From positions 1,488,001-1,552,000 of the forward strand of contig OZ024883.1 in NCBI GenBank assembly GCA_964017185.1: a DNA stretch of 64,000 bases, given 5' to 3'. This document shows, piece by piece, positions 575 to 58,632 of the stretch (positions are counted from its first letter, which is position 1; every line of letters starts with the position of its first letter). The notes beneath the pieces are model-generated. The model was given only the letters and a program-made list of their open reading frames with translations, was not told the origin of the DNA and made no database searches. The DNA comes from Rugalucina vietnamica (Eukaryota > Mollusca > Bivalvia > Lucinida > Lucinidae). A program made the position numbers and the translations under genes.

Positions 575-3295
575 ACCAGAGGACCATTGGTCCTGAGAAC
601 GCTCACCTGAAGCCTGATCCTGGAGTACATGTATTAAGTCATCATGAAATGACCTTGACCTTGAATACTCACACACCTTTATTGAATTCATAAGTTGTCT
701 GCATCTGCAAAGTTTCAGGTCTCATGCTGCAATACTTTCCAAACCCAGTGATTTCTGAGAAAACCATAATTTTAATTTTGATATTTAAATGACCTTTGGT
801 CCAGGTCAAGAAATGACCTTGGCCTTCATTAATTACTTACCTTCATTGACTCCATTGGTTGTCTGCATCTAGCAACTTTCATCTAGTACCTGACTGTTAG
901 TTTGGTTTTTTCCCACCTCGGTTTTTAGAGTGGGAATCTTTTTCTGATTGCGCCTTTTCCTGATCTTTGCCTACTTGTACCTTTTCAGGTCTCAGACTGC
1001 AACAGTGTCCAAAATATCCATTGTTTTCACCTTTTCCCATGTAAAAGCCTATGTTTCCAAAATTGACCTTGCCGTAAAATAGGTCAAGGTCATCCTAGGG
1101 TCATCATTTCAACAAACTATGATGGGCTGGAGTCCTTGATGCTACATAACAAGTTTCGCGAAAATCGGCCTGCCGGTTCTGAAGAAGATTTTTGAGTAGT
1201 TTTTACCATATATGGGCGTGGCGGCCATCTTGGTCATGTGTCCTGGATTTGGCGATCAAACTTTCGTCTCCCCTACCAATGGATGCTCCACATAAAATTT
1301 CACTTTGATTGGCCAAGCAGTTTCAGAGAAGAAGATCTTTGAAAAGTGTGTATGGACGACAGACTGGCCAAGGTCAAGAGATGACCTTGACCTAAATTAA
1401 TGACATACCTTCATCTACTCCATTAGTTGTTTGCATCTACCACTTTTATAGGCCTCAGGCTGCAATAGTTTTCAAAAAATCCATAGTTTTCACTTTTTCC
1501 CATGTAAAAGCCTATGTTTCCAAAATTGACCTTGCCGTAAAATAGGTCAAGGTCATCCTATGGTCATCATTTTATCAAACTATGATGGGCTGAAGTCCCA
1601 ATGCTACATACCAAGATTCGTGGAAATCGGCCTGCCGGTTCTGGAGAAGAAGATTTTTGAGTAGTTTTTACCATATATGGGCGTGGCGGCCATCTTGGTC
1701 ATGTGACCTGAATTTTGCGATCAAACTTCCGTCTCCCCTACCCATGGATGCTCCACATAAAATTTCAACTTGATTGGCCCAGCAGTTTCAGAGAAGATCT
1801 TTGAAAAGTGTGTATGGACGACAGACTGGCCAAGGTCAAGAGATGACCTTGACCTAAATTAATCACATACCTTCATCTACTCCATAAGTTGTTTGCATCT
1901 ACCACTTTTCAGGCCTCAGACTGCAATAGTTTTCAAAAAATCCATAGTTTTCACTTTTTCCCATGTAAAAGCCTATGTTTCAAAATTGACCTTGCCGTAA
2001 AATAGGTCAAGGTCATCCTATGGTCATCATTTTATCAAATTATGATGGGCTGAAGTCACTGATGCTACATACCAAGTTTCGTGGAAATCGGCCCACCGGT
2101 TCTGGAGAAGAAGATTTTTGAGTAGTTTCTAACATATATGGGCGTGGCGGCCATCTTGGTCATGTGATCTGGATTTTGCGATCAAACTTTCGTCTCTCCT
2201 ATACATGGATGCTCCACATAAAATTTCAATTTGATTGGCCCAGCAGTTTCAGAGAAGAAGATCTTTGAAAAGTGTGTATGGACGACAGACTGGCCAAGGT
2301 CAAGAGATGACCTTGACCTAAATTAATCACATACCTTCATCTACTCCATTAGTTGTTTGCATCTACCTCTTTTCAGGCCTCAGGCTGCAATAGTTTTCAA
2401 AAAATCCATAGTTTTCAATTTTTCCCATGTAAAAGCATATGTTTCCAAAATTGACCTTGCCGTAAAATATGTCAAGGTCATTCTATGGTCATCATTTTAT
2501 CAAACTATGATGGGCTGAAGTCCCCAATGCTACATACCAAGTGTCGTGGAAATCGGCCCACCGGTTCTGGAGAAGAAGATTTTTGAGTAGTTTTTACCAT
2601 ATATGGGCGTGGCGGCCATCTTGGTCATGTGACCTGAATTTTGCGATCAAACTTTCGTCTCCCCTACCCATGGATGTTCCACATAAAATTTCAACTTGAT
2701 TGGCTTAGCAGTTTCAGAGAAGAAGATCTTTGAAAAGTGTGTATGGACGACAGACTGGCCAAGGTCAAGAGATGACCTTGACCTAAATTAATCACATACC
2801 TTCATCTACTCCATTAGTTGTTTGCATCTACCACTTTTCAGGCCTCAGACTGCAATAGATTTCAAAAAATCCATAGTTTTCATTTTTTCATGTAAAAACC
2901 TGTTTCCAAAATTGACCTTGCCGTAAAATAGGTCAAGGTCATCCTATGGTCATCATTTTATCAAACTATGATGGGCTGAAGTGCCCGATGCCACATACAA
3001 GTTTCATGGAAATCGGCCCACTGGTTCTGGAGAAGAAGATTTTTGAGTGGTTTTTAACATATATGGGCGTGGCAGCCATCTTGGTCATGTGACCAAGATA
3101 TCATGAACAAAATTACAATGCCACTACCCAAGGAGGCTCCACATAAAATTTCAACTAGATTGGCCATGCGGTTTCAGAGAAGAAGATCTTTGAAATTGTG
3201 GACGACGACGACGACGATGGACGGACGACGGACGGACGCCGGATCTTGGCCATCCTATAAGCTCACCTTGTGAGCCTTCGGCTCAGGTGAGCTAA
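575..3295 (+). mobile_element. HINE-like element A with 463-bp tandem units
   Basis: The 5' head is ACCAGAGGACCATTGGTCCT, with inverted AGGACC/GGTCCT, followed by CGCTCACCTGA. The 3' end is a hairpin (AGCTCACCT...AGGTGAGCT around GAGCC-TTC-GGCTC) closing in CTAA. GCTCACCTGA near the 5' end and TCAGGTGAGC at the 3' end form subterminal inverted repeats. Between them lie five units of about 463 bp: GGCGTGGCGGCCATCTTGG or its variant recurs near 1214, 1680, 2141, 2605 and 3065. The last unit runs into a GACGACGACGGACGGACG tract. Conserved head, central tandem units and a 3' hairpin are the known layout of Helentron-associated (HINE) elements. That class is inferred; no transposase or clear target duplication is seen. 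PLE copy P2 is inserted at 884-983. Confidence 0.75.
884..983 (+). mobile_element. PLE 3'-end fragment (copy P2) inside element A
   Basis: About 100 bp match the extreme 3' end of the PLE, from TAGTACCTGACTGTTAG to TTGCCTACTTGTACCTT. The fragment interrupts the first 463-bp unit, which elsewhere reads GCATCTACCACTTTTCAGG. Short flanking TTTCA on both sides may be a target duplication. The copy is very strongly 5'-truncated. Confidence 0.8.
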
Positions 3296-11422: not shown

Positions 11423-38069
<26,647 letters not shown>

Positions 38070-38245: not shown

Positions 38246-38254
38246 TAGGAAATG

Positions 38255-38460
38255 AGCCACACATGGTAAAACAACAATCTGCATGTGCGAAAACAAAGAC
38301 GCAGATCAGCTTCGCAGAAACTTTGAAGCTGATCAGCGCATTTGTTTTCGCTACTCGGATAGTACAATTCCTCATCTTTTTAAAACCAAAATTTCAAGCT
38401 TCTAGCCTGCTTCGGATGTACAGCCTGCTTTGTGTCCGACCTGGTCGGAAACCCAAATTG
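38255..38460 (+). mobile_element. Hairpin repeat family H, copy 1
   Basis: GCGAAAACAAAGACGCAGATC faces GATCAGCGCATTTGTTTTCGC around AGCTTCGCAGAAACTTTGAAGC, a 30-bp imperfect palindrome. GATAGTACAATTCCTC and a GTGTCCGACCTGGTCGG end follow. Copies 2 and 3 are at 39660-39915 and 41518-41760. A 188-codon ORF across it is not considered a gene. Confidence 0.75.
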
Positions 38461-38954
38461 GTGGTTGTCTCTTACATAGGCTCAAGTGGTGTATACCCCT
38501 TACCATATCATAAAGTAAGCGCTGTAGTTACGAATCGTTTGCTACCTCTTTTCAGTAGTGGACTTTTCTGTTTTTGGATGCTTGTAAGATTTCATATACT
38601 GAACAATTTTATCCATTGTACAAGGGCAGATAGGAAACCAAGTTGTCAGTTGGCATACCTTATTATTTTATCACTCAAAGGAACCAGAACCAATTTGTTA
38701 CGCCATTTCAAACTTGCAGGGTTTCTCAGTTATATCACGGCTCATCACATGTCTAGTTTTATTTTATACTTTACAATGAAAAGGAACGTATATCAAAACT
38801 TGATAATTTTGATATTTTCATTGATATGAAATTTCACTGATATCAAATCTCACTGATGTCAAAAGCTAATAGTGACTGATATCAGCCTATATCTTCACTG
38901 TACAAGACGAACTACTTTTTTCAGTTTATAGTATAAAATAAAAAGAAAAACAAA
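38461..38954. other. No gene seen
   Basis: An ORF running from the family H repeat to 38829 lacks any recognisable motif. CTGATATCA-type short palindromes cluster at 38820-38890. Confidence 0.4.
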
Positions 38955-39159: not shown

Positions 39160-39400
39160 GCCCAGACGATCCATACACTAGCCTATCCGGAAACCAGGGG
39201 TATGAACGCCCGGTGACCAGTACTAACCATTAGATACCAGCCCATATTTTATCATGTACACCGTGCATCAGCCTACTAGGGAGCCAGGGGTATGAACGCC
39301 CGGTGATCAGTTATGAAAATTTACCATGTACACCATACATTAGCCTATCCGGGAACTAAGACTATGAACATCCGGTGACCATTAGTGACCAATAGATACC
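39160..39400 (+). repeat. Short tandem array, about 85-bp units
   Basis: ATTAGCCTATCCGGAAACC-type starts followed by ATGAACGCCCGGTGACCAG recur three times, near 39178, 39268 and 39349, with GATACCAG spacers. No coding signal was seen. Confidence 0.7.
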
Positions 39401-39659
39401 AGTCATTCGTTTTTCATGTAAAATTGATTTGACGTTGATTTCGTTCTAGGAATCACTGAGTCTGTAATTGATAAAATTTGTAGCTATGGGTTTTCATCCT
39501 TGGTATATAGACCAGTTAGCAGGGTAGCACGTGATTAACAATGTATAGCAACGCAATATGTTCGCTGCTATCACAAGGGGCTGACTAGTGGTTTTTAGCA
39601 TGATACTGCTTCTAGCATAATATTTAAGCATGTGCGTGAGAAAACAAACAATTTGGACT

Positions 39660-39915
39660 CCGATCATGTCTGACACATACCGGACTGTACAGTCATAGAA
39701 GATGGCTGGCAACAGGCTGGAAACTTTGGATTTGGAACGAAGAGGAATTGTACTATCCATGTAGCGAAACCAAAGGTGCTGATCAGCTTCGCTGTTACTG
39801 CGAAGCTGATCTGCGCCTTTGTTTTTGCCAATGCAGATCGTTTGTTTTCCCATCCGGCGGCTCATTTTGCATGCATACATGCATGTTTCTCTGTTAATTA
39901 TTGTTATGTCACATT
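39660..39915 (-). mobile_element. Hairpin repeat family H, copy 2 (antisense)
   Basis: The reverse complement contains AAAACAAAGGCGCAGATCAG, CTTCGCAGTAACAGCGAAG and CTGATCAGCACCTTTGGTTT, then GATAGTACAATTCCTCTTC, matching copies 1 and 3. The apparent 141-codon antisense ORF is this repeat. Confidence 0.75.
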
Positions 39916-40042
39916 GCATCTTTATTCATTCGAGACTATCTGCTGTGGTAAGAAGGTCGGGTTAGCAGATCACATGATGCATAACTTCTATATAAATGGC
40001 ACATCTATATATGACATTGTATCCGATAAGTACAATCTCTCC

Positions 40043-40765
40043 TATCTCACTGGAATGCGACAGCTGGAGACTAGTTCGCGAATAGCTCGCGATTATTTCG
40101 CGACAAAGATTAACAATATAAACACAATTTTCATGTTGCATTCTCATTGAATAGACATTTATGCGACAAATTAGAGAATTTCGTTCAAATTTTGAAAACA
40201 TATCTCGCGACTGTCGCGCAACTGTCGCAAGACAGTCGCACGACATTCGTGAGAGTGTCTCACGACTTTCCCGCGAATGTAGCTTATTTTCATTTAAATT
40301 CGTACGACAGTCGCACGGCATTCGTGTTAGTGTCGCACGACATTCGTTCGAATGTCGCTTAGTTTTATTTTCTCGCCAGATAGTCGCGAGGCTTTCGCAT
40401 ATTGTCTCAAGACTGTCGCGCGACCGTCGTGTTACACTCGCATGACATTCAAGCGATTGTCGCGAAAATTTCGCATTGTAAATCTGCAAATATTTCGCGG
40501 ACACAGGTTCGCGACACTCGCACGAACGTCGCGCGACCGTCGCACGACAGTCTAGCGAAATATTTTGACGAAAAAATTCGCATTTGTTTTTTAAACATGT
40601 TTTTAACCTTTGCGACCAGTTCGCGACTAGTTCGCAACACATGAAATTTCTCACGACATTCGCGCTACATTCGCTCGAATTTCATGTCACTCTCGCGAAT
40701 GTCGTGCGAAAGTCCGCGACAAAATTCGCAAAACAGTCGCGAGAAATTCGCAAGCCAGTGAGATA
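40043..40765. mobile_element. MITE filled with an 11-bp-phased TCG array
   Basis: The ends TATCTCACTGG-AA-TGCGA and TCGCAA-GCCAGTGAGATA are inverse (16 of 18). Between them TCG (or TC) recurs at exact 11-bp steps: 40214, 40225, 40236, 40247, 40258, 40269; again 40300-40355; again 40405-40471; again 40529-40551. The unit is roughly CGCACGACATT with drift. Flanking sequence on both sides is one SINE-like repeat (compare 46366-46480), so the block inserted into it; CTA or TA may be the duplicated target. ORFs rich in Arg/Ser/Val on both strands are artefacts. Confidence 0.85.
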
Positions 40766-40900
40766 CTAGCATACTACGTCAGAGAGTCGACTGTTCGGCT
40801 CAGATGTAAGGATGTTGGATTTCCAGGTGTCCCTGAGTTCGAATTCCATCAAGGACGTTTTTTCATGCAATGCATGATCTCGTATTGGCATATTTCATTT
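40766..40900 (+). mobile_element. tRNA-derived SINE family S2, diverged copy
   Basis: CATACTACGTCAGAGAGTCGACTGTTCGGCTCAGATG...GTTGGATTTCCAG...GAGTTCGAATTCCATCAAGGACG follows the order of the copies at 46097 and 46433, including a box B-like GTTCGAATTCC. Its 5' flank (39950-40042) is the same repeat, split off by the MITE. Confidence 0.65.
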
Positions 40901-41517: not shown

Positions 41518-41760
41518 TTAAATGAGCCGCATCGTGAGAAAACCGGAATTTTGCCTTTGCGAAAACAAAGACGCAGATCAGCTTCGCACTAACTGCGGAA
41601 AGCTGATCAGCGCCTTAGTTTTCGCTACACCGATAGTACAATTCCTATTCTTCCTAATTCCAAAATTGCAAGCGTCTAGCCTTTTCCTGAGACTATATAG
41701 GCCGGTTTGTGTCGGAACTGGTCGGTACCCCGAAGACCGCTTTTTTCGCGTCGCGGCTCA
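41518..41760 (+). mobile_element. Hairpin repeat family H, copy 3
   Basis: GCGAAAACAAAGACGCAGATC...GCTGATCAGCGCCTTAGTTTTCGC forms the family palindrome. GATAGTACAATTCCTATTC and GTGTCGGAACTGGTCGG follow. In frame it reads CENKDADQLRTNCG, a peptide type that comes from this repeat rather than from a gene. Confidence 0.75.
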
Positions 41761-46240: not shown

Positions 46241-46432
46241 TGGACCGGGATGGACCATATGAGTCATACAGTCATAAAAATGAAATTCTCGAAATGCGGG
46301 TGTGTTATGTCCCATCGCACCACTCATTCATTCGAGATTTGTATCATGATGCGTAACTTCTATAAATAGCACAGCTATTCGATGCAGTATATCATATATG
46401 TACAATTTCTGACATACTGCGTCGGGGAGTTG
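46241..46432 (+). repeat. S2-associated leader repeat
   Basis: CATTCATTCGAGATTTGTATCATGATGCGTAAC...ATAGCACAGCTATTCGATGCAG...CATACTGCGTCGGGGAG recurs at 45783-45845 and, diverged, at 39920-40042, always before an S2 tRNA-like head or a truncated one. It may be part of a composite SINE. Confidence 0.65.
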
Positions 46433-46560
46433 ACTCTTTCACTCAGTAGTTAGAGCATTGGATTTCTACCCCAGCGGTCCGGGTTCGAATCCCATCAGAA
46501 ACTACGCATCATTTATTAGGTACGAATTTTCATATTTGTAAGAAGGTGTTCTACAAACAT
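46433..46560 (+). mobile_element. tRNA-derived SINE family S2, second copy
   Basis: GACTCTTTCACTCAGTAGTTAGAGCATTGG and GGGTTCGAATCCCATCAG (box B intact), then ACTACGCATCATTTATTAGG, matching the copy at 46097. Confidence 0.8.
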
Positions 46561-46886: not shown

Positions 46887-48238
46887 GTGCAAGATTATTT
46901 CGACAGAAGACAAATCTTACTTCCTACATGTACAATTATGCTACATAGATCATATAGCTGTGGAACATGTGGTAAGTCATTCACACAGAAAGGCCATCTT
47001 CAAATGCATATGTTAATTCACATTGGCGATAAACCACATAATTGTGAAGCATGTGGGAAATCATTCACACGAAAAAGCGTTCTTACAACCCATATGCTTA
47101 TTCACACTGGAGATAGACGACATATCTGTGAAGCATGTGGAAAGTCATTCACGACGAAAAGCCATCTTACCACCCATATGCGTATTCACACTGGATATAG
47201 ACCACATAGCTGCGAAACGTGGACAATCATTCACACGGAAAGGCCATCTTCAAATGCATAGGTTAATTCACATTGGCGATAAACCACATAATTGTGATGC
47301 ATTTGGGAAACCATTCACACGAAAAAAGCGACCTTACAACCCATGTGCTTATTCACACTGGAGATAGACGACATAGCTGTGAAGCATGTGGAACGTCATT
47401 CACGACGAAAAGCCATCTTACAACCCATATGCGTATTCACACTGGTGATAGACCACATAGCTGTGAAACATGTGGAAAATCATTCACACAGAAAGGCTAT
47501 CTTAAAAGGCATATGCTAATTCACACTGGAGATAAACCACACAATTGTGAAATATGTGGAAAATCATTCACAATTAAATCTAGTCTAACTAATCATATGC
47601 TTATTCACACTGGAGATAAACCACATAGCTGTGACGCATGTGGAAAATCATTCACACAGAAAGGAAATCTTAAAACGCACATGTTATATCACACTGGAGA
47701 TAGACGACATAGCTGTGAAGCATGTGGAAAGGCATTCACGACGAAAAGCCATCTTACAACCCATATGCGTATTCACACTGGTGATAGACCACATAGCTGT
47801 GAAACATGTGAAAAATCATTCACACAGAAAGGCTATCTTAAAAGGCATATGCTAATTCACACTGGAGATAAACCACACAATTGTGAAATATGTGGAAAAT
47901 CATTCACAATTAAATCTAGTCTAACTAATCATATGCTTATTCACACTGGAGATAAACCACATAGCTGTGACGCATGTGGAAAATCATTCACACAGAAAGG
48001 AAATCTTAAAACGCATATGTTATTTCACACTGGAGATAAACAACATAGCTGTGACGCATGTGGAAAATTATTCACACTAAAAGCCCATCTTAAAATGCAT
48101 ATCTTAATTCACACTGGAGATAAACCACATAATTGTGAAGCATGTGGGAAATCATTCACACGAAAAAGCGATCTTACAAGCCATATGCTTATTCACACTG
48201 GTGATAAACCATATAGCTGCGGAACATATGGGAAATAA
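46887..48238 (+). pseudogene. C2H2 zinc-finger array, frameshifted
   Basis: About 15 fingers of 28 residues, C-x2-C-GKSFT-x5-L-x2-H-x3-H, with the linker HTGDKPH in place of the common TGEKPY. The frame opens at MQDYFDRRQ, runs through three fingers, loses 2 nt at about 47220 (CGAAACGTGGACAATC where sisters read GAAACATGTGGAAAATC), then gains an A at about 47327 (CGAAAAAAGCG against CGAAAAAGCG). It then runs intact from finger 5 to a TAA at 48236 inside a finger (TATGGGAAATAA for TGTGGGAAATCA). Fingers 6-9 and 10-13 are near-identical 336-bp blocks. C2H2 proteins bind DNA in the nucleus. No other domain was found. The breaks argue for a pseudogene unless they are assembly errors. Confidence 0.85.
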
Positions 48239-49000
48239 TTCGCACGGAAAAGCAGTCTTACAACCCATTCGCTTATTCACACTGAAGATAAACCACATGA
48301 GTGTGATACTTGTCTAAGTATTCATATACTTAATCACACTGGAGATTAACCATACAATTGTGATTTTTGTAGAAAATCATTTTTACAAAAAAAGCATTCT
48401 TATCCCGCATATGTTGAAACACATTGGAGATAAACCACGTGAGTGTGGTACTTACTCTTCATGGCAGTCAAACAACATATATGCTCATTCGCACCGGGAA
48501 AAAGTCACACAAATGTGGTGTTTGTGGAAAATGGTTTCATCAGAAACAAACTCTAAAAGCACATAAGCTTATTCACACTGGAGATGAAGAAATAAGTTGT
48601 GGAACTTGTGCACAAACACCTGTTCATAATTCCAATCTTAAAAGACATATGCCTATTTACACTGGTGTAAAGACACTCAGTTGTCATGTTTGTGGAAAAT
48701 CATTTAATCAGAAACATAGTAAAAAACATATGCTAATTCACACTGGAGATAAATCACACAGTTGTGAACTTTGCGGAAAATCATTTGCACAGAAACAAAT
48801 TATCAAAACATTTGCGCAATCATACCTAAAATCAACCACACCACTGGGATTTTTGTGGTAAATCATTTGAAAGCAAACGTAATATTACAGAGCATATGCG
48901 AATTCACATTGGAGATATACAAAGTTATGAAACGTGCATATAATTATGTACACAGGAAAACAGTCTTACGATGCATATGCTTATACACGATAAAGATAAG
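48239..49000 (+). pseudogene. Decayed continuation of the zinc-finger array
   Basis: Fingers continue in shifting frames: FARKSSLTTHSLIHTEDKPH, CDFCRKSFLQKK, CGVCGKWFHQKQTLKAHKLI, CHVCGKSFNQKHSKKHMLI and CELCGKSFAQKQ. Stops and lost cysteines are frequent, and decay increases downstream. AATAAA at about 49097 could be the old polyadenylation signal. Confidence 0.8.
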
Positions 49001-55137: not shown

Positions 55138-57172
55138 TAATGCCCACTTAAACGATTTACCTGTTAAGTTTTCTGTTTGTGTCAATGAAGGCCAAGACAA
55201 ACTTCCTACGATGTATTGGTTACCTAAGCTTCACAAAAGACCATACAAAGCTAGATTTATTGCAAATTCAGTACTACCACTGAACTTTCTAAATTATTAA
55301 CTTCCTGTCTTACTGCTATCAAATCTCATGTTATAAGATACTGTGAGACAGTGTATGAAACTTCAAATAAAAATTGGTTTTGGTCAATTAAAAATTCTGG
55401 TGAGGTGCTCAGTAAATTGAAGTGTAGAGGGTTCCGTGCGACAAGCTTGTCCACATATGATTTTTCTACTCTGTATACAACATTACCACATAATCTAATT
55501 AAAGAAAAACTTCTGGATTTGATAGAGTGGACCTTCAAAAGGGCATTAAAAAACTATGGTTCACTTTATTTGGCATGTAATGACAGAAAGGCTTTTTTCA
55601 CTTCCTCTGACCAAAGTCGGTATACACTTTGGTCATGTCAGAATGTATGCGACGCCTTATCCTATCTCCTTGATAATATTTATATTAGATTTGGGACCAA
55701 GTTATACAGACAAATTGTTGGAATTCCGATGGGTACAAATTGCGCACCTCTCGTAGCTGATTTATTTTTATACTGCTACGAAAGAGATTTCATGGATTCT
55801 CTTAACCATGATAATCAAGCTGATGTTATCGAGGCTTTTAATTCCACATCTAGGTACCTCGATGACCTTTTGAACATTGACAACCCTTATTTTGAAGGTA
55901 TGGTCAATCAAATTTATCCACCTGAACTTCAGTTGAACAAAGCCAATATCTCAGATACTGAAGCCCCCTTTTTAGATCTACATCTTTCTGTTGCAAATGG
56001 ATTTGTTTCTTCTAAAATTTATGATAAGCGCGATGACTTTGATTTTGATATAGTAAATTTTCCTTCTTTGGATGGTGACGTTCCTCGTCGTGCTTCTTAT
56101 GGTGTATACATTTCGCAACTTATTAGGTTTGCTAGAGTCTGCAATCATGTTACAGACTTCAACGCTCGAAATAAATGTTTAACGGCAAAACTTCTCCAAC
56201 AGGGCTATCGGTATCATAAACTTCGAAAAACATTTTCTAAATTTTATCGTAGACACTATGAATTGATTTCCAAATATAATGTTGGGTTAAAGACGCTTTT
56301 AAGTGAGGGCCTTTCGGAACCTGAATTTTATGGTGACTTGGTTTACAAATTTAAGAAACTTAAAGGAATTAATGATTTTTCTTTTCAGTTCAGAAAAATC
56401 ATAACACGTTACAGACGTATAGGTTATAACTTGAATGTTATGCGACAGTCTGCATGCTTAGTTTTTAACCCAATCATGGTTGATAACTATGCTGCCTTCT
56501 TTAATTGCACGCCGGTGGGTCGGGCGTCAGACTCTATGATGGCCCCGACATAAAGCTATTCATTGTAGTTGGTTGGGGCCGGAGCTTCTTGTCTGTTGCT
56601 TGGCCCACCGGGGTCCAACTGGTGTTTTTCTTTTGCTCCGGAGTTAGTAGGTTATTCGGCGTCCAGGGATCTCCATCGTCGGGCAGCTTACTCAGTCTGT
56701 GAGTCCTGGTTTTTGATTCATCAGGATGTTTATCATGATTTATTTGTTTGTTCTTGATGATTCATTGACTAGTTAGAGATTCACCACGAAGACCGAATAA
56801 CTAACTAAATGTTATGAACCACTGCAGAAGCTGAGGGTGAGGTTATGGCCATGTAAAACCGGTTTAAGCCCGCCAGTAACTTTGTGTTACTGATCGTTCC
56901 AAGTCGATACTTCTGTGGTGGTTCTTTTTGTTTTGTGTTTTGGTGTATAAAAATTTTTTGTGCTGTTGGCGCCTTATGTATGTTTTCATATTTTTAGTTA
57001 AGTTAAGGTAACTGAGTGGCCACCTATTGGGAAAATAGCTGCTCATTCGGCTTACGATATGTTTCATGGTAAAAGTACCTGATTGTTAGTTTGGTTTTTT
57101 CCCACCTCGGTTTTTGGAGTGGGAATCTTTTTCTGATTGCGCCTTTTCCTGATCTTTGCCTACTTGTACCTT
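55138..57172 (+). mobile_element. Penelope-like element, best copy (P15)
   Basis: It splits element C (AAAGCTGTTT | TTCAGAGGAG). Coding sequence starts already 5'-truncated at LNDLPVKFSVCVNEGQDKLP. A lost heptamer near 55268 shifts the frame relative to copy P9. The ORF then runs to 56551, followed by a roughly 620-bp 3' region ending TTGCCTACTTGTACCTT. Fifteen or so copies of this 3' region are in the window. Confidence 0.9.
55351..56553 (+). CDS. PLE reverse transcriptase, 5'-truncated
   Basis: 400 codons. RT blocks: LSTYDFSTLYTTLPHNLIKE (motif A), GIPMGTNCAPLVADLFLYCY (motif B) and SRYLDDLLNI (catalytic YLDD), then EAPFLDLHLS, SKIYDKRDDFDFDIVNFPS, SYGVYISQLIRFARVCNHV, QGYRYHKLRKTFSKFYRRH and GLSEPEFYGDLVYKF. 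This order is that of Penelope-like RTs. No GIY-YIG endonuclease follows before the stop, so the element is either of a type with an N-terminal nuclease (Naiad/Chlamys-like) or lacks one; the missing 5' part prevents a decision. The true start lies upstream of a frameshift, so the ATG given is only the first in this frame. Confidence 0.9.
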   Translation: MYETSNKNWFWSIKNSGEVLSKLKCRGFRATSLSTYDFSTLYTTLPHNLIKEKLLDLIEWTFKRALKNYGSLYLACNDRKAFFTSSDQSRYTLWSCQNVCDALSYLLDNIYIRFGTKLYRQIVGIPMGTNCAPLVADLFLYCYERDFMDSLNHDNQADVIEAFNSTSRYLDDLLNIDNPYFEGMVNQIYPPELQLNKANISDTEAPFLDLHLSVANGFVSSKIYDKRDDFDFDIVNFPSLDGDVPRRASYGVYISQLIRFARVCNHVTDFNARNKCLTAKLLQQGYRYHKLRKTFSKFYRRHYELISKYNVGLKTLLSEGLSEPEFYGDLVYKFKKLKGINDFSFQFRKIITRYRRIGYNLNVMRQSACLVFNPIMVDNYAAFFNCTPVGRASDSMMAPT

Positions 57173-58632
57173 TTCAGAGGAGATGTTTGAATATTATGGT
57201 AATATACATGTATATTGCCCCGGGGTGGGGCCATATAAGCTCTTGGGTCCAACTTTTTTCAGAATCATTAATATTCAGTCCTACTGCCCATTTCCTGCAA
57301 GATTTTCACCTCAAATGACTTTTTAAAAGTTTTCCCCTTTCAAATGTATAGGCCACCTATGTGGACCTTGTCGTAAAATTAGGTTAAGGTCACCACAGGG
57401 TCATGATTTATATACACATTGTAGTACTTGAGCCATCGATGCTTTATGCCAAGTTTCTTTGAAATTGGTCCACCAGTTCCGGAGTAGAAGATTTTTTAAG
57501 GGTTTTTATCTTACATGGGCATGGTGGCCATCTTGGTCATGTGACCTGGATTATTTAGATATACACTGATTCTCCAATTCTATAGATCTATGCTTCACAT
57601 AAAATTTGGCTTTGATTGGCAAAGTGGTTTCAGAGGAGCAGATGTTTGAATATTATGTTAATATACATATATAATGCCATAGGGTGGGGACAGATGAGCC
57701 CCTTGGGTCCATTTTTTTCAGTATTATTAATATTCAGTCCTACTGCCTATTTCCTGCAAGACTTTCACTTTAAATGACTTTTTAAAAGTTTTCTCCGTTC
57801 AAATGCATTGGCGACCTATGTTGACCTTGCCGTAAAATAGGTCAATGTCATCACAGGGTCATGATTTATATATACATTGGAGTACTTGAGCCATAGATAC
57901 TTCATGCCAAGTTTCATAGAAATTTGTCCTCATGTTCCAGAGAAGATTTTTGAAGTGTTTTTACCATGGGCATGGTGGCCATCTTGGTCATGTGACCTGG
58001 TTTATTTTTATATACAGTGGTTCCCCCTTCCTATAGAAACTTCACATAAAATTTGGCTTTGATTAGCCAAGCGGTTTCAGAGGAGAAGTCGTTTGAATAT
58101 TATGGAGATATACATGTATATTGCCCCGGGGTGGGGGCACATGAGCCCCTGGGGTCCAATTTTTTCACAATCATTAATATTCAGTCCTACTGCCCATTAC
58201 CTGCAAGACTTTCACGTTAAATGACATTATAAAAGTTTTCCCCATTCAAATGCATTGGCGTCCTATGTTGACCTGGCTGTAAATTAGGTCAAGGTCATCA
58301 CAGGGTCATGATTTCTATAAACATTGTAGTGCTTGAGCCATCAATGCTTCATGCCAAGTTTCATTGGAATCGGTTCACCGGTTCGGGAGAAGAAGATTTT
58401 TGAAGGGTTTTTACCATATATGGGCGTGGTGGCCATCTTGGTCATGTGATCTTAATCATTTATACATCCGTTCCCCTATCCTATGGATGCTTCACATAAA
58501 ATTTGGCTTTGATTGACCAAGTGGTTTCAGAGGAGAAGATCTTTGAAATTCTGGACGACGGACGGACGCCAGTCGCCGGATCATGGCCGTCCGATAAGCT
58601 CACCTTGTGAGCCTAACGGCTAAGGTGAGCTA
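57173..58632 (+). mobile_element. HINE-like element C, right part
   Basis: Units restart at TTCAGAGGAGA near 57174, 57630, 58077 and 58527, spaced about 450 bp. Each holds ATGTTTGAATATTATGG..., ACATGTATATTGCCCCGGGG and GGTGGCCATCTTGGTCATGT. It ends GGACGACGGACGGACGCC and the hairpin AGCTCACCTTGTGAGCC...GGTGAGCTAA, slightly damaged (GCCTAACGGCTAAGG). Confidence 0.8.

Follow-up and report, generated by a model that had tools for sequence, protein, structure and literature searches.

An 11-bp minisatellite probably carried by a PIF/Harbinger-like MITE in the genome of Rugalucina vietnamica

We have analysed a stretch of 64,000 nucleotides (the window) from the lucinid bivalve Rugalucina vietnamica, in which a block at positions 40043-40765 carries TCG at steps of 11 nt while the letters in between drift. 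The question raised by this locus is what kind of unit the block is and how its phase, which resembles one turn of the DNA helix, is kept when the sequence changes. A first-pass annotation had offered two answers, selection or copying on the helical repeat and an 11-bp minisatellite captured by a MITE.

The block and its receiving repeat

The features of the locus are listed below (window coordinates, strand, description and basis).

40041..40769, + strand: MITE copy, non-autonomous transposon with terminal inverted repeats (alignment to the other copies)
40043..40060, + strand: left terminal inverted repeat (inverted match of 18 nt, 89%)
40748..40765, - strand: right terminal inverted repeat (inverted match of 18 nt, 89%)
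40071..40103, + strand: 11-bp array of the TCGCGA type, 3 units (listing of TCG positions; repeat pairs)
40203..40279, + strand: 11-bp array, phase block 1, with TC at 40203-40269 (listing of TCG positions)
40300..40365, + strand: 11-bp array, phase block 2, six TCG from 40300 (TCG listing; TRF 40298-40358, period 22)
40373..40481, + strand: 11-bp arrays, phase blocks 3-4, with one 10-bp step at 40395-40405 (TCG listing)
40509..40561, + strand: 11-bp array, phase block 5 (TCG listing; TRF 40511-40558)
40612..40642, + strand: 11-bp units of the TCGCGA type (TCG listing; repeat pairs)
40649..40758, + strand: 11-bp arrays reaching the right end (TCG listing)
39973..40040, + strand: receiving repeat, left part (78% to 46345-46410)
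40770..40851, + strand: receiving tRNA-like SINE, right part (70% to 46413-46497)
46345..46497, + strand: paralogous site lacking the insertion, carrying tRNA-like A and B boxes (by eye)

There are 40 TCG in the block, with 21 pairs at lag 11 and 13 at lag 22. Since 500 dinucleotide-preserving shuffles of the same stretch gave a mean of 1.09 lag-11 pairs and a maximum of 6, the recurrence in three runs described by the first-pass annotation is real. Counting TC as well, these runs comprise six positions at 40214-40269, six TCG at 40300-40355 and seven positions at 40405-40471. They are out of phase with each other, steps of 9, 10, 13, 14, 18, 24 and more nucleotides separating the blocks, and the whole is a row of several short arrays, not one continuous 11-bp register. 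The pattern is also particular to this place. Taking TCG and CGA together there are 28 lag-11 pairs in the block and at most 2 in any 700-bp stretch starting outside 39301-40799 (100-bp steps). The high CpG content that had been pointed out was found too, with an observed/expected ratio of 2.23 in the block vs 0.75 across the remaining window.

The inverted termini named at first, TATCTCACTGG at 40043-40053 and CCAGTGAGATA at 40755-40765, do belong to an inverted match (18 nt, 89%), but they do not bound the element, whose true ends lie 6 bp further out on each side: AGCCCC at the left and CTAGCT at the right, followed by TWA. The window copy, about 10% diverged from the young consensus, has lost the outermost of these bases (AGCC at the left, CT at the right) and has no flanking TWA duplication.

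An empty copy at 46345-46410 and 46413-46497, its two parts separated by two bases, aligns with the two flanks (39973-40040 and 40770-40851), in agreement with the earlier claim that both flanks come from one dispersed repeat into which the block moved as a unit. Inspection by eye suggests that this empty copy is a SINE of tRNA origin in which A and B boxes can be recognised; ARAGORN and Rfam (gathering score) called nothing at 46345-46497. The right flank has at least 49 matches in the genome including itself (40 of 68 candidates scored), 42 of the 49 beginning at the junction (40770, the fifth base of the query). Nine pairs of these matches are spaced 333-394 bp.

The window holds other repeats as well. 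At 46954-48306 there is an 84-bp tandem array of 16 units, the unit reading by eye as a C2H2 zinc finger, and at 12184-12890 a CTAT microsatellite of 176 units with 99% matches. Long-period tandem repeats (465 and 447 bp) occupy 981-3195 and 57172-58555. Close to the block, a 32-bp inverted repeat (39764-39828, 84%) lies within a dispersed repeat also present at 38250-38471 and 41520-41725 and seen by eye at the end of one of the MITE copies (L104).

A dispersed family with a 3-bp target duplication

Used as a query against the genome (1.09 Gb, 47 contigs), the block gave 2,427 candidate places, of which 40 were scored; the other end-to-end copies showed 81-87% identity, and in the loci fetched around the scored places 36 copies covered the query from base 1 to 723. 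Intact copies begin with AGCCCCTATCTCACTGG and finish with CCAGTGAGATACTAGCT, bordered on the outside by TWA, and in most copies TTA or TAA adjoins both ends. Searching the end motifs genome-wide with at most one mismatch retrieved 1,401 left and 1,841 right ends, and the reversed-motif controls retrieved 0. The inverted repeat measured from end to end is 17-18 bp.

Copies were collected in two ways. The set chosen by similarity included 41 copies longer than 650 bp, 36 of them with both ends kept (5 were left out). The positional sample, from contigs 1 and 2, took 80 of the first 100 listed left ends among the 1,401; the other 20 were 6 in one minisatellite, 2 duplicates, 3 composites and 9 outside the fetched loci. 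From these 80 we removed 19 for which the fetched stretch contained no right end, together with the composite L105_73 (TTA/TAA). With the remaining 60 the total is 96 complete copies, 36 by similarity and 60 by position. The period was studied in 68 copies (the 60 positional ones, the window copy and 7 of the 36), and divergence and indels in 66 (the 36, 29 of the first positional batch, L105_73 among them, and the window copy).

Complete single copies in the positional sample are 378-745 bp long, apart from L104, a doubtful call of 341 bp with unlike flanks. In 10 of the 68 copies the longest open stretch was 180 aa or more (up to 220 aa), with frames and lengths that vary between copies. Pfam gave no match for four such stretches, 96-215 aa long, taken from the window copy and from one of the youngest copies (L022). 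We read these long open stretches as a by-product of stop-poor arrays. The block is thus one copy of a dispersed non-autonomous DNA transposon, a MITE, common in this genome: short, present in high copy number, with inverted ends and a target site duplication and without coding capacity of its own. As in tandem-repeat-containing MITEs, there is an inner tandem array with a variable number of units. Since other copies carry both termini and the 11-bp period, the proposal of a transposon-like unit inside a SINE-like repeat holds, and neither of the outcomes that had been set against it (no copies with the same termini, no common 11-bp period) occurred.

Some of the copies are peculiar. L083 (G000:C1:6392000-6392330) ends in a 31-bp minisatellite of seven units, each of which joins the 17-bp left end of the element to 14 bp of different sequence. 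L080 and L115 keep 40-48 bp of the left end, the partner end being absent from the next 6 kb. L090, L086, L125 and L122-L123 seem to share one inner repeat foreign to the MITE, and the left end is preceded by TTT in L090 (1,754 bp) as in L086 (about 1.5 kb), possibly by duplication of a segment or because a composite moved as one.

The triplets flanking the 96 complete copies were identical TTA or TAA in 51, another identical triplet (TTC, AAA, ATA, TAT or TTT) in 9, one TTA and one TAA in 17, and different in some other way in 19. C precedes TWA in 32 of the 51 and G follows it in 25. Two copies, L031 (TAA/TAA) and L040 (TTA/TTA), are inserted in older copies of the same element, with the host copy intact and TWA alone doubled. 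A duplication of TA, or of TTAA as in piggyBac, is ruled out because both these self-nested insertions and the identical triplets other than TWA show 3 bp. A 3-bp TWA duplication is a feature of PIF/Harbinger elements, and from this duplication alone we infer an element of PIF/Harbinger type. Transposons of this superfamily encode a second, Myb/SANT-like protein.

Harbinger-type genes are plentiful in the genome, with at least 150 scored matches to PF13359 (DDE_Tnp_4) of 415 candidates. No inverted pair of MITE ends and no array was found within 1.5 kb on each side of 30 of these 150 matches. One match located 7.7 kb from a MITE copy on contig 2 proved unrelated and had no inverted pair of ends. 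Longer end-to-end stretches on contig 1 were considered as a possible autonomous element, and those resolved turned out to be composites with other repeats: L090 (1.75 kb), L121, L122+L123 (12.7 kb), L124 and L125. Their interiors contain, by eye, a LINE fragment, an LTR retrotransposon or the shared inner repeat. Neither these stretches nor the PF13359 loci yielded an element that joins the MITE ends to a transposase.

The copies with unlike triplets deserve attention by themselves. Among the 68 copies flanked by TWA left and right they number 17, divided 9 to 8 between the two orientations. Mutation would hit the first, middle and last positions alike, and 17 of the 21 single A/T differences found in the duplications fall at the middle one (p 1e-5 vs one third). 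In the set chosen by similarity 16 pairs were alike and 10 unlike, and in the positional sample (without L105_73) 35 and 7; such a majority of like pairs in the latter rejects full independence of the two middle bases.

We tentatively suggest, as a possible cause that we hold to be somewhat unlikely, a sticky-end insertion in which the element would be excised with the 5' TWA overhangs of the donor and ligated into a new TWA target untrimmed and unfilled. The outer T and A would have to pair and the middle base would be free, so that one side could read TTA and the opposite side TAA. A hand calculation from the ratio of 31 T to 20 A predicts 24-32% of unlike pairs, and 25% were seen (17/68). 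Cuts leaving 5' TWA overhangs have been proposed for the excision of mPing in yeast (PMC4561436). However, unlike pairs were found in 15 of 44 copies with at least 17 lag-11 pairs vs 2 of 24 others (p 0.02), an excess in young copies that sticky-end insertion alone does not predict and that favours either a subfamily trait or gene conversion, among young and almost identical copies, that extends into the duplication. Gene conversion and exchange between copies are the rival explanations. The copy L019 reads TAA/TTA and sits in a short telomere-type TTAGGG stretch, with one unit at its left and two at its right, which suggests, as one modest case in a short stretch, that exchange between distant loci is not the sole cause of the unlike pairs.

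The 11-bp unit and the persistence of its phase

A consensus of 705 positions was derived from 41 rows, and 473 of these positions belong to 11-mers that contain CG, begin with TC and are accompanied by another TC at a distance of 11 nt. The commonest unit is the palindrome TCGYRCGA plus 3 bp; close to either end of the element the form is TCGCGA plus 5 bp. There are 7 TCGCGCGA, 6 TCGCACGA, 3 TCGTACGA and 3 TCGTGCGA, and the palindromic core TCGNNCGA occurs 19 times. When TCG, TTG and TCA were counted together, lag 11 was the strongest of lags 5-40 in all 68 copies (in one of them tied), and with strict TCG in 65 of 68. Lag 11 came out top or tied in 67 of 1,360 shuffles, none of which reached the count observed in its copy. 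These 68 copies are relatives, so they represent a shared property and not 68 independent events. The first-pass annotation had proposed to check whether the period is common to the genomic copies and whether the phase is kept as they diverge; the former was seen in 68/68 copies and the latter in copies with decayed motifs.

Changes in length are informative about how such arrays evolve. Among 97 distinct indel events of at least 3 bp relative to the young consensus (66 copies), 26 were multiples of 11, an excess with p 4e-7 over 1 in 11, which is a rough null with crude binning. Lengths of 10, 11 and 12 bp appeared in 6, 14 and 3 events. Indels that break the phase also occur, one 10-bp step and other sizes among them, and substitutions leave it intact. 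As for these substitutions, 18 copies show a divergence of 8% or more, and in 14 of them the frequency of change at CpG was 2.4-4.1 times that at other sites; the window copy is one of the four exceptions (ratio 1.25, no strong excess). In the mostly young copies chosen by similarity, the share of cells that depart from the consensus is 2.9% at CpG positions and 2.5-5.2% at other bases; singleton changes among young copies are about 1.45 times denser at CpG (89 in 192 vs 164 in 513 positions). In older copies the arrays blur and the CpGs are lost, and the spacing stays.

Six of the 60 complete positional copies (L088, L089, L095, L109, L112 and L150) form a subfamily with decayed arrays. A consensus made from five of these copies contains 19 TCG and 5 lag-11 pairs vs 42 and 29 in the young type, and the six members have 96.4% mutual identity and 86% to the young type. 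This subfamily would have amplified after most of the array decay, the direction from young to decayed type being read without an outgroup. If it was copied after the array had decayed, the full array is not needed for movement, and a few end units may still be needed. At the other extreme, the youngest copies (L022, L023 and L024, with no differences from the consensus) carry nearly the most perfect arrays, with 29 lag-11 pairs (the maximum among single copies is 30), which hints at upkeep. Singleton vs shared changes were 133:53 in the unit core, 43:28 in the spacer and 77:56 outside. The core excess of singletons (Fisher p 0.011 vs all the rest, p 0.10 vs the spacer alone) keeps a functional role possible, as a weak signal partly confounded with CpG decay.

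The best explanation is, with good probability, that an 11-bp minisatellite is carried by a PIF/Harbinger-like MITE and that the spacing is the footprint of an old tandem array. A gene-less element of about 700 bp would be moved in trans by a DDE transposase of PIF/Harbinger type, which would recognise the 17-bp inverted ends and perhaps the adjoining bases. The array grows and shrinks preferentially by whole units, as the excess of such events shows, presumably by slippage or unequal exchange; new copies would inherit it, and substitutions, CpG decay included, would leave the phase in place. The phase would thus be kept while the letters drift because of tandem origin and descent. The palindromic units may in addition bind the transposase or a partner protein, the full set not being required. 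Phase in copies with decayed motifs, length changes by whole 11-bp units and amplification of the decayed subfamily indicate that a tandem array plus inheritance is enough, and on the same grounds selection or copying on the helical repeat is not supported; of the two options offered at first, the minisatellite captured by a MITE is the better supported.

The strongest competitor, which we nevertheless consider unlikely, takes the 11-bp units as binding sites for the transposase, its Myb-like partner or a host factor, spaced by one helical turn so as to let a filament assemble along a single face of the DNA, with selection on transposition keeping the phase. The 19 palindromic cores in the 705-bp consensus, the nearly best arrays of the youngest copies and the relatively few shared changes in the core all fit with this. 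However, the core is not significantly conserved against the spacer alone, the phase jumps of 9, 10, 13, 14 and other steps mean that the sites do not lie on one face overall, and the decayed subfamily amplified with 5 lag-11 TCG pairs instead of 29. Clearly less probable is a chromatin or methylation device, either an unmethylated CpG island or a cassette for nucleosome phasing. The consensus has a CpG observed/expected ratio of 2.39 vs 0.75 around it and its CpGs differ little in the mostly young copies, as such a device would have it, but the excess of CpG changes in 14 of the 18 older copies and the denser young singletons point to methylation after insertion.

The remaining two alternatives concern the class of element. 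Foldback elements have long inverted arms built of tandem repeats, and one could imagine the self-complementary arrays acting via DNA folding, since the single strand folds far better than its shuffles (z -10.65, from only 20 shuffles). We give this slightly less credit than the chromatin device. The arms are 17-18 bp end to end, and the palindromic units by themselves explain the folding. Helitrons have neither inverted ends nor a target duplication, and a rolling-circle (Helitron/Helentron) satellite carrier in place of a DNA transposon has almost no likelihood here, given the inverted ends and the identical triplets that flank 60 of the 96 copies; the two self-nested insertions with TWA duplicated refute it. 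In its favour were the CTAG contained in the right end and the rolling-circle carriers of tandem repeats reported in oyster (PMC7492417).

Relation to known elements and meaning

Satovic and Plohl reportedly described in 2013 a MITE containing tandem repeats in the clam Donax trunculus. Xstir and miDNA4 of Xenopus are tandem-repeat-containing MITEs too, according to the review PMC12628747. The element described here resembles all three in being non-autonomous, with inverted repeats and an inner tandem array. What sets it apart, at least from the Xenopus elements, is its unit, 11 bp long, palindromic and CpG-rich, and arrays that take up about two thirds of the consensus (473/705). With PIF/Harbinger elements and Tourist-type MITEs such as mPing it shares the 3-bp TWA duplication, short inverted ends and high copy number, and unlike them it has an unlike middle base in 17 of 68 TWA/TWA copies. 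The coral CMITEs (PMC2872659) are similar as MITEs whose interior is remarkable and which include elements paired in tandem; according to the abstract they are linked to piggyBac, whereas the duplication here is TWA. piggyBac itself would be an analogy only, in that target-matching overhangs would be carried by the element, TTAA there and TWA here. In the literature searched by end motifs, arrays and tandem-repeat MITEs, with subscription papers largely outside, no paper among those listed described this family and no paper was found on CpG-rich palindromic subterminal arrays. Judged by this literature, the family looks like a new form of MITE with an inner tandem repeat.

A regular spacing that resembles a helical code can arise without one, from a tandem repeat in a mobile element whose phase outlives its letters. 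The subfamily with decayed arrays is a natural test of the importance of the array for movement. If confirmed, the unlike TWA duplications would let genomes show whether the overhangs of the donor travel with elements of PIF/Harbinger type.
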